IMG/VR virus record: IMGVR_UViG_3300048798_000003
Coordinates: 1 to 20,633 of that record
DNA length: 20,633 nucleotides
Origin: a virus
Reading direction: 5' to 3' (one strand)
Under the pieces are notes generated by a model. That model made no database searches. It saw nothing but the letters and a program-made list of their open reading frames with translations, and was not told the DNA's origin. Shown piece after piece: positions 7,769 to 18,669 of the stretch (position 1 is its first letter; each line of letters opens with the position of its first letter). The position numbers and the translations under genes are program-made.

Positions 7769-7968
7769 AATACTGGCAAATCTATCTTGTAATATTTTTG
7801 ATTATGTTTCTTGTACCTGAAGCATATGCTCAAATTACAAAAAAGATGGCACCATTAACGCAATTTGTAAGGGTTTCAACAAAGCGTCATTTAGCCATTA
7901 TTTTTCTTCTAGGAGAACTTTGTGGATGGGCATTGATGCATTTTTGGGGTGGGGGTTGGTGTGGATAG
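7765..7968 (+). CDS. Small membrane protein (67 aa), possible holin-like
   Basis: Sixty-seven residues with two hydrophobic segments: residues 4-18 (WQIYLVIFLIMFLVP) and residues about 43-60 (LAIIFLLGELCGWALMHFW), joined by a basic loop with KRH. The first segment is followed by EAYAQ, which could be a signal-peptidase site. A two-helix small membrane protein coupled to a one-helix protein fits a holin-type pair, but no endolysin is present in this window, so lysis is only a guess. Confidence 0.55.
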   Translation: MKYWQIYLVIFLIMFLVPEAYAQITKKMAPLTQFVRVSTKRHLAIIFLLGELCGWALMHFWGGGWCG

Positions 7969-8416
7969 CCAAGAACATTTAAGACATGGCGTTGAACGCA
8001 GTCCTGAATGGCATAAAATAGAGAAAGCATTCCTATTAAAGAATCCTAATTGCGCTGCCTGTAATACTACATATTCGTCCGTTCAAGTGCATCATGTATT
8101 TCCTTTTCATTATTGTATTCTTTTAGGTAGACCAGATTTAGAACTTGACCCACGAAATTTAATTACTTTATGTGAGACTACACATACTTGTACTTCAAAT
8201 GATCATCATTTATTACTTGGTCATTTTGATGACTTTAAGTCAGCTAATCTTAATGTTCGCTCAGATGTATTGAAATATAAGGGTTGGACACAAACTAGCA
8301 TCAAGAATAATATTGAATGGCAAGATAATATAGTAAATAAATTAAAGCCTTATGATGAGATGTCTGATGAAGACAAAGAACAATTCAAAGAACTAATGCA
8401 GAAAACTTATGGCTGA
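7961..8416 (+). CDS. HNH endonuclease next to the terminase genes
   Basis: An HNH-type nuclease of about 151 residues. The zinc-ribbon-like pair CAAC is followed by VHHVFPFHYC (the His-His of the HNH core) and LDPRNLITLCE (Asn and the second Cys), then CTSNDHHLLLGHFDDF. HNH proteins beside terminase genes help cohesive-end packaging in some phages; others are free-standing homing endonucleases. The start is uncertain. GTG at 7961 has a G-rich stretch upstream and is preferred here; GTG at 7949 would add four residues. Both overlap the membrane-protein gene. Its stop overlaps the small-terminase start. Confidence 0.75.
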   Translation: MDSQEHLRHGVERSPEWHKIEKAFLLKNPNCAACNTTYSSVQVHHVFPFHYCILLGRPDLELDPRNLITLCETTHTCTSNDHHLLLGHFDDFKSANLNVRSDVLKYKGWTQTSIKNNIEWQDNIVNKLKPYDEMSDEDKEQFKELMQKTYG

Positions 8417-8849: not shown

Positions 8850-9086
8850 ATGAGTAAAGCAGAACCATTCGGTTTCTATAAGGATGAACAAGGAAATAAA
8901 CTCGCAATACCAGATCAATTAGATGCCCTTAAGCAAGCAGAATATTATATTAAACAAGGGTGCACAATGCGATCTGTACGAGATTGGTTAGTACAAAAGA
9001 CTGGACGAGATATTTCTACTCCTGGATTATTAAAAGCAATACGGTATGATAAAACCAAAAAGAACGCCGAAACAGCAACGAATTGA
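8850..9086 (+). CDS. Small helix-turn-helix-like protein between terminase genes (78 aa)
   Basis: A 78-residue protein with the pattern PFGFYKDEQGNKLAIPDQL then AEYYIKQGCTMRSVRDWLV and KTGRDISTPGLLKAI. This resembles the 'recombinase-like' helical segment found in small genes just upstream of large terminase genes in several short-tailed phages. The arrangement (long helix, turn, second helix) could bind DNA. It overlaps the large terminase start by 41 nt. Function is not established; a packaging accessory role is an inference from position. Confidence 0.65.
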   Translation: MSKAEPFGFYKDEQGNKLAIPDQLDALKQAEYYIKQGCTMRSVRDWLVQKTGRDISTPGLLKAIRYDKTKKNAETATN

Positions 9087-11688
9087 CACCTTAAAGAATA
9101 CTAAAGGCACACCTGCATTAAAATTCAAGGAAAAGATTACAGGAGACTTTAGATCAACTTCAAAGACATCTAATATTGTTACAGATAAAGAGATCGATGC
9201 CCTTCCAGCACAAATTAAAGATGATATCCTTGAAGAAGATGTAAACATTGTCTTTAGGCCAAATCCAGGGCCACAGACTGAATTTCTTGCGGCCACTGAA
9301 ACTGAGGTCCTATATGGTGGTGCTAGAGGTGGTGGTAAGGGGGGACGCTATGTATCTGAAATCATTACACCTTTTGGAAAACGAAAGATGGAAGATATTC
9401 ATGTTGGAGACATAATATCTAATCCTGATGGAAGTCCACAAAAGGTAATTAAAGAAACAGAGTTAGGCGTAGTCCCTGTATATAGATTTCATTTTATAGA
9501 TGGCTCAACCACAGAAGTTTCTGACGATCATTTATGGTTAATCCATAAAACTTGCAGAGCATCTAAATTAAAAAACTACTCTGAAGGTTTTTTTAAAGGT
9601 GAGATATATACTACTAAAGAAATAAGAGAGTGGCTAGATAGAAAAAATAGTGCATTAGATAATCAGACCATAAAGCAACAAAACTTAATTATCCCATTAT
9701 GCCGACCTATTCAATTTACTAAATCTTATAAAGTAAATCCTATTGATATTCATCCTTATGTTTTAGGATGCCTATTGGGGGATGGCTGTATGACAAAAAA
9801 AGAAATCACTATTGCCTCAGCAGATATAGAGTTAGTAGATAGAATTAGAGAATTAGGGTATAATGTAACTTCATATGAAAACAGTATTACTCATAGATTT
9901 ACAACAGCAAATAATTTAGATGATAAGCTCCAAAAACTTAAATTATTAGGTAAGCATTCTTATAATAAATTTATTCCAGAATATTATAAGTGGGCTTCTA
10001 TAGAAAATAGATTTGAATTAATACGTGGATTAATGGACACTGATGGTTACGCAGATGATAGAGGCCATTTAGAATATTGTACAATAAGTAAACAATTGGC
10101 GCAAGATATTAAGTGGGTATTAAAAAGTTTAGGGGCAAAAGTTACCATACAAGAAAAAATACCGACCTATACCTATAAAGGTGAAAAAAAACAAGGACAA
10201 TTAGCATACATCCTTTATATTCAGTCAGATCATAATGAGAAGTTCTTCTGGCTAGATAGAAAAGTAAAAAGATGTGAACATAAAAAATATAATGGGGGAC
10301 ACGGGGATTTAGGATTACGCATTGAGAAGGTCGAATATATAGGAGATCATAGATGCAAATGTATAACTGTTCGTAATTCAAATGGGCTATATTTACAAGA
10401 TGACTTTATTGTAACCCACAATAGTTACAGCCTCTTAGTTGATCCTTTAAGATATTGCCACAAAGCTCAGCATAATGCTGTAATCATTCGGCGTACAATG
10501 CCAGAACTAAGGGATTTAATTAATCATTCAAGGGCATTATATCCAAAAGCATTTCCAGGAGCCAAATATTCAGAAGTAGGCAAAGAATGGAGATTTCCTT
10601 CCGGTGCCAGAATTGAGTTTGGTTATTTAGAAACACAAGCAGATGTTCTACAATTCCAGGGCCGAGCTTATTCTTGGGTGGGAATCGATGAGATAGGACA
10701 ATTTGCAGAATATAATATAATTAGAGATTTACTAGGATCATTGCGATCCGTTGATATAACAATACCGACGTTCTTTCGTTGTTCAGCCAACCCAGGTGGC
10801 ATAGGAAGCCATTGGATAAAGGAACATTTCATTGATCCAGCACCGCCCAACACGCCTTTTTTTGTGCCTGTTGATCCTGACGATCCAAATAGCGACACCA
10901 TATCACGGAGATTTATCCCCGCTCGATTATATGATAATCCTTATCTAACGCAAACTAAGGCATATGAAAATATGCTTAAATCTCTCCCTGAGAATAAACG
11001 CAAGATGTGGCTTGAGGGCCGATGGGACATTATTGAAGGCGCTGCATTTGAAGAATTTGATCCTAGAGTTCATGTAGTAGAACAGTTCGATATTCCTTCA
11101 AATTGGCCTAAATGGCGCGCGGCCGATTGGGGTTTTTCCAGTCCTTTTTGTGTACTTTGGATGGCAGCAGACTACGATAATAATATTTATGTGTATAGGG
11201 AGTTTTATGGGAAAGGGTTAACTGCTGATATTTTTGCTCAGAGAGTACGAGCATTAGAGCAAGGAGAGACCGTTAATTACGGCGTTATGGATAGCTCTAC
11301 TTGGAGTCGAAGGGGCGACGTTGGACCAGCAGTACCAGAGATTATGAGACAACATGGTTGTGTATGGAGACCTAGTGATAGAAGTCCTGGTAGTCGTCAC
11401 AGCGGTAAGATGGAAGTTCATAGACGATTAAGAGTTATTCCAGGCCCTAATGGCCCTACAGCAAAATTAAAGATATTCAAGAATTGTAGAAACTTAATTC
11501 AACATCTTCCGGCGCTCCCTGTTGATCCTAATGATTCAGAAGATGTTGACACCAAAGCTTTAGACCACTCCTACGATGCTTTAAGATATGGATTAATGAG
11601 TAGACCAATGGATGCCTTAAAGATGGATATGTATAAACAAATGGATAGATATACTACATGGCGTCCTGCAAATAAAGTTGGATATTAA
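9046..11688 (+). CDS. terL: Large terminase subunit interrupted by a class 3 intein
   Basis: An 880-residue precursor, giving a 519-residue mature packaging ATPase/nuclease after removal of the intein (residues 99-459). Joining the exteins restores the Walker A motif GGARGGGKS. Walker B is WVGIDE (Asp548, Glu549). The C-terminal RNase H-like nuclease has its acidic residues in RAADWGFSS (Asp694), YGVMDSS (Asp749) and LDHSYDALRY (Asp840/Asp844). It motors DNA into the procapsid through the portal and cuts concatemers. The start at 9046 overlaps the preceding gene and has no strong ribosome site, so a slightly later start is possible. The insertion splits the essential P-loop, so the motor should be inactive until protein splicing occurs. 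Confidence 0.95.
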   Translation: MIKPKRTPKQQRIDTLKNTKGTPALKFKEKITGDFRSTSKTSNIVTDKEIDALPAQIKDDILEEDVNIVFRPNPGPQTEFLAATETEVLYGGARGGGKGGRYVSEIITPFGKRKMEDIHVGDIISNPDGSPQKVIKETELGVVPVYRFHFIDGSTTEVSDDHLWLIHKTCRASKLKNYSEGFFKGEIYTTKEIREWLDRKNSALDNQTIKQQNLIIPLCRPIQFTKSYKVNPIDIHPYVLGCLLGDGCMTKKEITIASADIELVDRIRELGYNVTSYENSITHRFTTANNLDDKLQKLKLLGKHSYNKFIPEYYKWASIENRFELIRGLMDTDGYADDRGHLEYCTISKQLAQDIKWVLKSLGAKVTIQEKIPTYTYKGEKKQGQLAYILYIQSDHNEKFFWLDRKVKRCEHKKYNGGHGDLGLRIEKVEYIGDHRCKCITVRNSNGLYLQDDFIVTHNSYSLLVDPLRYCHKAQHNAVIIRRTMPELRDLINHSRALYPKAFPGAKYSEVGKEWRFPSGARIEFGYLETQADVLQFQGRAYSWVGIDEIGQFAEYNIIRDLLGSLRSVDITIPTFFRCSANPGGIGSHWIKEHFIDPAPPNTPFFVPVDPDDPNSDTISRRFIPARLYDNPYLTQTKAYENMLKSLPENKRKMWLEGRWDIIEGAAFEEFDPRVHVVEQFDIPSNWPKWRAADWGFSSPFCVLWMAADYDNNIYVYREFYGKGLTADIFAQRVRALEQGETVNYGVMDSSTWSRRGDVGPAVPEIMRQHGCVWRPSDRSPGSRHSGKMEVHRRLRVIPGPNGPTAKLKIFKNCRNLIQHLPALPVDPNDSEDVDTKALDHSYDALRYGLMSRPMDALKMDMYKQMDRYTTWRPANKVGY
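9340..10422 (+). mobile_element. Class 3 intein with LAGLIDADG endonuclease, in terL
   Basis: 361 residues, Gly99 to Asn459 of the precursor. Residue 1 is Gly, not Cys/Ser/Thr, so the standard first step is impossible. Instead the class 3 Trp-Cys-Thr triplet is present: Trp164 two residues after the block B His162 (DHLWL), Cys439 in block F (CKCITV), and Thr457 in the C-terminal THN. The penultimate His458, terminal Asn459 and the +1 Ser460 of the extein complete the set. Block A is ITPFGKRKMEDIHVGD. The endonuclease core has both motifs with acidic residues, LGCLLGDG (Asp246) and IRGLMDTDG (Asp331/Asp333), so homing activity may be intact. Class 3 inteins are known from phages and phage-derived genes. 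Confidence 0.93.
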
Positions 11689-16643: not shown

Positions 16644-18669
16644 ATGGCATTCCAAGTTGCTGCCGGTTGGCAGAATCTTCCGAATGGCAATTTCGTTCCA
16701 CAGATTTTCTCGCAGAAGGTGAATTTTCGCTTTCTTTAAATCGGGCTAATTGCTGGAAACCCCAATAATTGGGCAATCAGCAGCCGACTTTTCTAAATAT
16801 AAGATGGCAGCTTTAAGCAGCTCTATATTATCATTAAAGTGTCCTATACCAAAATTACATTTAGTGCATAAAAGACCACTCTTATTATTTGAAAATGGGT
16901 TCATCGACTAGCTGTAAAGCGTACATTCAAGTGAATGGAAACCCCCGACATTATATATAAGTATACCATAAAATTGACGTTAAGTCAAATATATAATGAA
17001 GATATAGTCAAGTCTGCATGGTAACATGCAGCAGTTCATAAGAGAACGGTATTAGATTAACGACCTAGTATGAATATAAACGACAAAAATTCTTTCGGCG
17101 AGAATCCGTAGTTGAAGCAATTACCAACACGGATTACTATGGCGAAATTTCTGAGTACGGCGATACCGTATATATCATCAAAGAACCAGTAATCACAGTT
17201 GCTCCGTAAATAAATCGATGCTCGCGGAACAGTGATTCTACCTCAAGCATTAGCAGACGATGAGCTAACGCTTATTGTAGATCAGGCCAATTATTTTGGC
17301 TTCCAGGTTAACGTTAGCCTGGGTAACATTAGGTGAATTGTCTGGAAACTCCTATTATCCAACATTTTTCTATTGACAAAATTGTAATATAGTGCTATAA
17401 TTAAGATAGACAATAACAATAAAAAAATAGGAACATGAGTAAAAAAATATACGAAGACACAAGAGAAAGATTTAAAGTTTATAATCAAAAACATAAAGAG
17501 AAACGTGCACTAGATAAAAAGAACTATCTATCAACATTAAAAGGTAGATTAATGGATTTAGTTAATAAATGTTCTAATCGTGCTCTAAAGAAACAGTTTG
17601 AATGTAATATTGATTTTGATTTCTTATTATCTTTATGGAATGGCCAAGGCGGAAAATGTGCTGTAACTAATCTTGATATGAGCTTAATGTCTGGAACACC
17701 ATTAAAGAAAAATGGTTTTATTGTCTCTGTTGATAGGAAAGATTCTTCTAAAGGGTATACTAAAGATAATGTACATTTAGTATGCTTTGCTGTAAATCAA
17801 ATTAAAAGTAATTTTACTGATGAAGAATTTGAATTTTGGATAAGGACAATCAGCAGCCAAGCCTTTAATTAGGAAGGTTCAACGACTATCCCGAAAGGGA
17901 GTACATCCAAGTGGATGGAAGCGCCTAACTTCTAAGTCTGGTATAAAAATACTTAGAATGAAGATATAGTCTGGACTGCATAGTAATATGCAGCAGTTCA
18001 TAAAAGAACGGTATTAGCTTAACGACCTAATATGAACACAAATGTGACGATATTGAAAATAAACAATCTCATGTAAATTGGGAAGAACTTGCTACTAGCT
18101 CAGGTGCGTATAGCTTGAAGGATACTTTCGACAAGGAAGTCCTTCTATATATGACCGGGCAGGTTAGCACATCTAATCCTAACATGACTCTCGGTACTAC
18201 TGGTGCCCCCCTTACTGTTGGCTTTGCCAGTGGTAATACAAGCCCATTATATGTCCTAAATCGTCTGTCTCGTTTCCTAGACGAACAGAATATCCCTTCA
18301 GATAATCGTTGGTGTGTAGCGCCCCCGGTTTTTTGGGAAAAGGTTCAGGATGAAAGTTCTAAGTTGATCGGCGTTGATTGGCAGTCTTCTGCTTCCGATC
18401 AGTCAATCCTCCGTAATGGCCGTGTCCTTAATGGTATGGTTCGTGGGTTTGATTGTTTCCGAAGCAATAACATGCCTCTTGATAGCTCAAGCAACTATCA
18501 GCTTATGGTTGGACATATGAGTTCAACTGCATCTGCATCACAGATTGCTAAGGTTGAAAAGTTCCGTTCCCCAACATCCTTCAGTGACGTTGTTCGTGGT
18601 CTTCATATGTTTGGTCGTAAAGTATTGCGTCCAACCGCTATGGGCCTCGCACACTTCCTGGTCAGCTAA
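16644..18669 (+). CDS. Major capsid protein, three exons split by two group I introns
   Basis: Exons 16644-16720, 17083-17308 and 18045-18669. Splicing yields QKV-QKFFRRESVVEA across junction 1 and YFGFQV-DDIENK across junction 2, both as expected for podovirus coat proteins. An AGGAG site lies 9 nt upstream of the ATG. The exons total 928 nt, one more than a multiple of three. The cause is a 10-nt insertion at about 17208-17217 in exon 2, after EPVITVAP, which places TAA codons in both relevant frames. Skipping it gives CCG TAT GCT CGC and an intact 305-residue protein (918 nt). The C-terminal exon is uninterrupted (GAYSLKDTFDKEVLLYMTG ... GLAHFLVS). It builds the icosahedral shell. Whether this allele makes full-length product depends on that insertion. 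Confidence 0.85.
16721..17082 (+). ncRNA. Group I intron 1 in the major capsid gene (362 nt)
   Basis: The 5' splice site is set by P1: exon bases 16714-16720 (AGAAGGU) pair with 16729-16735 (GCUUUCU) through an 8-nt loop, ending in the required U-G wobble. The intron ends in G (17082). Core landmarks are CAATCAGCAGCC (near 16775), a CATTC-AAGT-GAATG hairpin (16924-16937), GATATAGTC of the P3/P7 region (17001-17009), and the P8-like hairpin CTGCATG-GTAA-CATGCAG (17014-17031). The 3' part is closely related to intron 2, with compensatory changes in both hairpins. It has no forward ORF; a reverse-strand endonuclease remnant lies at 16746-16904. Confidence 0.9.
16746..16904 (-). pseudogene. Degenerate endonuclease VII-type homing gene remnant, antisense in intron 1
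   Basis: On the reverse strand an open frame of 52 codons (ATG at 16904-16902, TAG at 16748-16746) encodes SGLLCTKCNFGIGHF then NDNIELLKAAILYLEK at residues 9-39. This is the C-terminal signature of the T4 endonuclease VII (His-Me finger) family: 'GLLCxxCNxGLGxFxDNxELLxxAIxYL'. The second CxxC is present, but the upstream part with the catalytic Asp-His-x-His and first CxxC is missing; an in-frame TAG stands just before the ATG. The last 13 codons run into the intron core. It is best read as a truncated homing endonuclease gene once carried on the opposite strand. Confidence 0.75.
17207..17219 (+). other. Frame-breaking 10-nt insertion inside capsid exon 2
   Basis: After GTT GCT CCG the frame meets TAA (17207-17209). 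The capsid sequence resumes one frame later at GCT CGC GGA (from 17220, product ARGTVILPQALADDEL), and that frame has its own TAA at 17211-17213. Removing AAATAAATCG (17208-17217) restores P-Y-A-R-G-T. No group I or group II features fit in 10 nt. A GCT codon occurs on each side (17201 and 17220), the matched take-off/landing pair that translational bypassing would need, and TCCG/CGGA can form a stem around the segment. Sequencing error is equally possible. Confidence 0.7.
17373..17401 (+). promoter_or_regulatory. Consensus sigma-70 promoter for the intron endonuclease
   Basis: TTGACA (17373-17378) and TATAAT (17396-17401) are separated by exactly 17 nt, 34 nt upstream of the endonuclease ATG. 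The spacer matches the rightward promoter at 1260-1288 at 11 of 17 positions. It would let host polymerase express the endonuclease early, independent of late capsid transcription. Confidence 0.8.
17435..17872 (+). CDS. HNH homing endonuclease in capsid intron 2
   Basis: A 145-residue HNH homing endonuclease. The N-terminal 60 residues are basic and helical (YNQKHKEKRALDKKNYLSTL), likely DNA-binding. The nuclease core reads GGKCAVTNLDMSLM, then FIVSVDRKDSSKGYTKDNVH and LVCFAVNQIKSNFTDEEF. This matches the phage intron HNH pattern 'GGKCALTG...SIDRIDSSKGYTxDNVxxVC..xNxMK'. Such enzymes cut intronless capsid alleles so that the intron is copied in. An AGGA lies just 5' of the ATG. The last codons overlap conserved intron core sequence, so protein and RNA structure constrain each other. 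Confidence 0.88.
   Translation: MSKKIYEDTRERFKVYNQKHKEKRALDKKNYLSTLKGRLMDLVNKCSNRALKKQFECNIDFDFLLSLWNGQGGKCAVTNLDMSLMSGTPLKKNGFIVSVDRKDSSKGYTKDNVHLVCFAVNQIKSNFTDEEFEFWIRTISSQAFN

Follow-up and report, generated by a model that had tools for sequence, protein, structure and literature searches.

A LAGLIDADG intein with a class 3 signature in the ATP-binding loop of a phage large terminase

What kind of element parts the lysine from the serine in the Walker A loop of a phage large terminase subunit (TerL), and how unusual is it to find it there? This question is raised by a viral DNA stretch of 20,633 nucleotides (IMG/VR record IMGVR_UViG_3300048798_000003, positions 1 to 20,633), hereafter the window, for which all coordinates refer to the plus strand. 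Positions 9046..11688 form a single uninterrupted frame of 880 amino acids. Its product matched the PHROG terminase large subunit (1.5e-43) and was 54% identical to the TerL of Pelagibacter phage HTVC033P, and we annotated the gene as terL, encoding a TerL precursor with an intein. A Pfam Terminase_6N search of the whole virus record gave no match, in keeping with how easily intein-split terminases are missed when annotating viral metagenomes.

Eight intein-free TerLs, among which that of HTVC033P was the nearest, aligned along both halves of the protein and delimited an insert of 361 amino acids that parts Lys98 from Ser460 within the Walker A motif. The N-extein (residues 1-98; 9046..9339) ends in the N-terminal part of this motif, YGGARGGGK (9313..9339), and the C-extein (residues 460-880; 10423..11688) opens with the partner serine, Ser460, as its +1 residue. 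Between them, the intein (residues 99-459; 9340..10422) starts with Gly99, its residue 1, and ends in Thr457-His458-Asn459. Its junctions were backed by the intein-free homologues and by structural alignment with solved class 3 inteins. The G+C content of the intein was 31.6%, versus 40.6% for the exteins. Excision in silico left 519 amino acids with the loop restored (GGARGGGKS, within YGGARGGGKSY), and the spliced product reads EVLYGGARGGGKSYSLLVDPLRY. The homologue alignment bore out the placement claimed in the original prediction, with GGARGGGK separated from S, and the translation reproduced the residue numbers that it gave (Trp164, Cys439, Thr457 and Ser460) as well as the 519-residue length of the product. 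With the Lys and the Ser of the ATP-binding loop kept apart by the insert, it is sound to expect that the unspliced terminase should be inactive and packaging dependent on splicing.

Class 3 inteins are defined by the triplet Trp B:12, Cys F:4 and Thr G:5 (PMC3196547, PMC5050341), which is complete in the window intein. We examined these positions in a 29-row alignment (A2) and in 107 distinct inteins, namely that of the window and 106 viral relatives; the relatives were gathered from IMG/VR using window-intein peptides, mostly of the endonuclease domain, with three more from named phages. Block B comprises His162-Leu-Trp164 (intein residues 64-66; 9529..9537), in which His B:10 was invariant and Trp B:12 nearly invariant in A2. 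Tryptophan occupied intein position 66 in 96 of the 107 inteins and phenylalanine in six more, a regularity that is partly built in, as Trp spacing was one of the guides for placing the N-junctions in the second batch; in the first batch, with junctions set by P-loop inspection, nearly all rows had Trp at the same position 66. Cys439 (block F:4; 10360..10362), the presumed first nucleophile and branch point, showed no variation in A2 and was present in all 107 inteins, and its neighbour Cys437 was not conserved in the 29 rows. The Thr457, His458 and Asn459 columns of block G (10414..10422) were likewise invariant in A2, all 107 inteins ended in THN, and the +1 residue after Asn459, Ser460, is nucleophilic. 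Position 1 carries no Ser, Cys or Thr. A glycine start is uncommon, yet not odd, since 9 of the 107 inteins have one (8 of the 106 relatives plus the window's). The signature therefore supports a class 3 assignment of the window intein, at the level of sequence. This agrees with the class originally proposed from Gly1, Trp164, Cys439, Thr457-His-Asn and the +1 Ser, and the alignment check suggested at that time, run on 29 sequences, placed Trp164 and Cys439 in blocks B and F.

An AlphaFold2 model of the intein, flanked at either end by five extein residues (mean pLDDT 87.7, pTM 0.89) gave a compatible picture. PI-SceI and similar intein endonucleases matched the model over its whole length (Z about 28). 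When only splicing-domain structures are considered, the class 3 DnaB intein 6bs8 was the best match (Z 19.1, 1.5 A over 123 residues, 28% identity) and led together with two others of this type, 6riy and 6rix; Gly1 and Asn361 of the model coincided in the alignment with the two terminal residues of the solved class 3 inteins. Since class 3 structures lead class 1 mini-inteins only narrowly (Z 19 versus Z 18), the predicted fold, a HINT domain plus a LAGLIDADG domain, confirms an intein, and the class is set by the signature and not by the fold alone.

The endonuclease domain also appears intact, as had been claimed. Both LAGLIDADG motifs retain their acidic residues: VLGCLLGDG (9760..9786), for which Gly148, Asp153 and Gly154 of A2 were conserved, and LIRGLMDTDG (10018..10047), detected by Pfam, with an invariant Asp240-Gly241 in A2. 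The domain matched Pfam LAGLIDADG_3 with E = 2.1e-12. The idea that the site is targeted because the DNA around it is conserved finds only partial support in the sequences compared: the 12-codon tract centred on the insertion point ranked 128th of 420 for conservation among relatives, and the tract encoding residues 87-98, just upstream, ranked first.

All these data are almost certainly best explained by a class 3 LAGLIDADG homing intein in the TerL P-loop. Its splicing chemistry can be drawn by analogy from the class 3 mechanism (PMC3196547, PMC7664689). Cys439 would attack the Lys98-Gly99 bond to form a thioester-linked branched intermediate, from which the N-extein would be transferred to Ser460; Asn459 would then cyclise, and an O-to-N shift would join Lys98 to Ser460 and restore GGARGGGKS. 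The endonuclease, for its part, would cleave terL genes lacking the intein close to the conserved P-loop codons, leading to the copying in of the intein.

Three other readings of this locus deserve consideration. The insert might belong to another class, either class 1, if its N-terminus had been placed wrongly, or class 2, with the +1 Ser attacking the N-junction directly. Gly1 by itself would be compatible with class 2, and the model was matched nearly as well by class 1 mini-inteins. However, the homologues fix the N-junction between Lys98 and Gly99, with no Ser, Cys or Thr present, the Trp/Cys/Thr triplet is complete with a Cys439 invariant among relatives, and class 2 is known from KlbA only (PMC3196547), all of which makes a different class very improbable. 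We give equally little credence to the view that the intein has decayed and lost its ability to splice, leaving the contig with a dead terL. Such decay has a precedent in the class 3 pseudogene intein Arsp-FB24 Arth_1007 (PMC3196547), and a frameshifting 10-nt insertion in the contig's major capsid gene is a sign that some damage or assembly error is present. Nevertheless, the terL frame runs for 880 codons without a stop despite its low G+C, and it keeps all catalytic positions as well as both endonuclease motifs. In addition, terL is normally essential.

The intein might also be a regulator as well as a mobile element, with oxidative or other stress delaying Cys439-dependent splicing and, with it, packaging. 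Stressors do affect the splicing of mycobacterial DnaB inteins (PMC6195587), H2O2 inhibits N-cleavage of the class 3 MchDnaB1 intein (PMC7664689), and placement in the P-loop would result in an on/off switch. Nothing in the window locus points to regulation, however, and the empty site in close relatives better suits a parasitic element; moreover, the phage TerL inteins tested so far splice fast (PMC5050341). A regulatory role is thus unlikely, if somewhat less so than another class or decay, and we retain the homing intein with class 3 chemistry as the preferred explanation.

How unusual is such an element? A tblastn search with the intein matched 651 phage records, 531 of them over at least 80% of its length, which excludes chance; the best match had E = 2e-62 over 98% of the intein. 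When the proteins hosting the related inteins were scanned with PHROG, about 26 further terminases or terminase-like proteins proved to harbour class 3 LAGLIDADG inteins, with the insertion at the P-loop Lys in nearly every case. These proteins include L022, L152-L159, L162, L169, L177, L194, L198, L216, L220 and L230, and the same Walker A insertion between Lys and Ser/Thr occurs in L022, L154, L156, L157, L194, L216 and L220. Named carriers are Acinetobacter phage TaPaz, for which the GenBank record describes TerL as intein-containing, Parabacteroides phage PF672P2 and the uncultured crAss-like phage cr111_1. In large phages, helicases and further P-loop ATPases are also common hosts of related inteins. 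The window intein is therefore ordinary, an insert of a type already common at this place in phages, and it leaves the knowledge of intein chemistry unchanged. The original prediction had presented a terminase P-loop example with a complete endonuclease as a useful data point, a value that now looks overstated given how numerous class 3 inteins are at exactly this TerL position and given an earlier experimental precedent, the Baka TerL1-b intein.

We then compared the history of the intein with that of its host gene. Peptide patterns derived from the single spliced TerL of 519 amino acids were too specific and found no relatives among viral contigs; TerL relatives were retrieved with an alignment query (A1). 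The Walker A motif was uninterrupted in 84 of 88 close TerLs by a strict pattern or inspection, and in 88 of 88 by a looser pattern, these intein-free TerLs being the top of a ranking that possibly favours uninterrupted genes and hence giving no unbiased frequency. Inteins at this site are sporadically distributed. The closest intein, that of L002, was 44% identical to the window's, and its host TerL only 13% identical. In turn, the IMG/VR TerLs L216 and L220, which belong to the same family as the window's TerL (45% identical), carry class 3 inteins at the identical Lys-Ser point that share only 34% identity with that of the window. A careful tree paired the window intein with L002 (96/69) and then with L152 (94/87), both TerL-hosted, and not with L216 or L220. 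This disagreement between intein and extein relatedness, with the nearest intein in a TerL of 13% identity versus 34% for the inteins within the family, fits horizontal acquisition by homing, as far as sequence comparison goes. On the intein trees, TerL hosting was clustered (5 changes versus 18 in shuffles for 53 rows; 8 versus 24 for 94 rows), with a weakly supported backbone and a 16-row core clade including L216 that the AU test neither demonstrated nor rejected (p-AU 0.45). It is conceivable, at a little less than even chances, that the window intein belongs to a class 3 lineage which is specialised in the TerL P-loop and moves among terminases of almost no identity because its endonuclease reads mainly the glycine-rich P-loop codons and not the host gene at large. 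Beyond a catalogue entry, the interest of this locus lies in the evidence of inteins at the P-loop site moving among very distant terminases.

Other insertions were found on the same record. The major capsid gene is split into three exons (about 16644-16721, 17090-17330 and 18048-18669) by two group I introns at 16652-17031 and 17713-17993 (Rfam, 82.5 and 63.9 bits); it is unbroken in the related phages HTVC033P, CRP-212 and HTVC115P. Inside the second intron, an HNH/endonuclease VII-like gene (17435-17872; phrog_3322, 5.5e-22) is likely an intron homing endonuclease. The middle exon contains the ten-base insertion AATAAATCGA (17209-17218), where relatives read V-x-x-Y-A-R-G; it stops or breaks the capsid frame, and an assembly error, a mutation, the remnant of another element or ribosome bypass are all candidate explanations. 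A second HNH endonuclease-like gene (7949-8416; phrog_144, 1.8e-10) lies just upstream of the packaging genes, and a sulfotransferase-like gene (2102-2965; Pfam Sulfotransfer_3, 9e-14) shares the contig with the phage structural genes.

A different element occurs in the TerL Walker A codons of Rhizobium phage RHph_N3_13, whose TerL belongs to the same family as the window's: a group I intron (704-921 of L069, 60.7 bits), located upstream of the window's intein site by a few codons. In the record of this phage, terL is annotated solely downstream of the intron. Together, the inteins of the window, L216 and L220, which are not each other's closest relatives, and this intron suggest repeated invasion of the P-loop codons within one terminase family, in one case by a group I intron. 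This should help annotators of terminases in viral metagenomes, and the known phage carriers of class 3 inteins in the packaging ATPase now include HMO-2011/HTVC033P-like podoviruses.

Among known systems, the mycobacteriophage TerLs, which have seven intein insertion sites, two of them in the P-loop, offer the closest experimental parallel (PMC5050341). The Baka TerL1-b intein (gp6) splices and cuts intein-free terL DNA (PMC5050341), and its sequence carries the class 3 signature (HLW, TRCIQV and THN followed by S), so that an experimentally active class 3 intein in the TerL P-loop already exists, its class being read from its sequence. Like the window intein, it combines this signature with a LAGLIDADG domain in the TerL Walker A loop, but it differs in its position, one residue away from the TerL1-a site, in its intein identity (26%) and in the actinobacterial hosts of its phages. 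The TerL1-a intein shares the point of insertion, after the Lys and before, in this case, a Thr. TaPaz, PF672P2, cr111_1 and many IMG/VR contigs resemble the window in their Lys-Ser/Thr insertion point, Trp/Cys/Thr signature and endonuclease type, whereas their inteins are 31-44% identical to the window's and their host TerLs mostly less than 35% identical. The Mycobacterium class 3 DnaB1 inteins (6bs8, 6rix and 6riy) share the splicing fold and the triplet (28% splicing-domain identity), but they are mini-inteins without endonuclease and reside in a helicase. Finally, in Delta-group crAss-like phages TerL inteins occur together with group I introns in capsid genes (PMC7886860), the same pairing as in the window, where the introns are in the major capsid gene, although in an unrelated phage group and with Hint-Hop inteins reported for one genome (PMC7886860).
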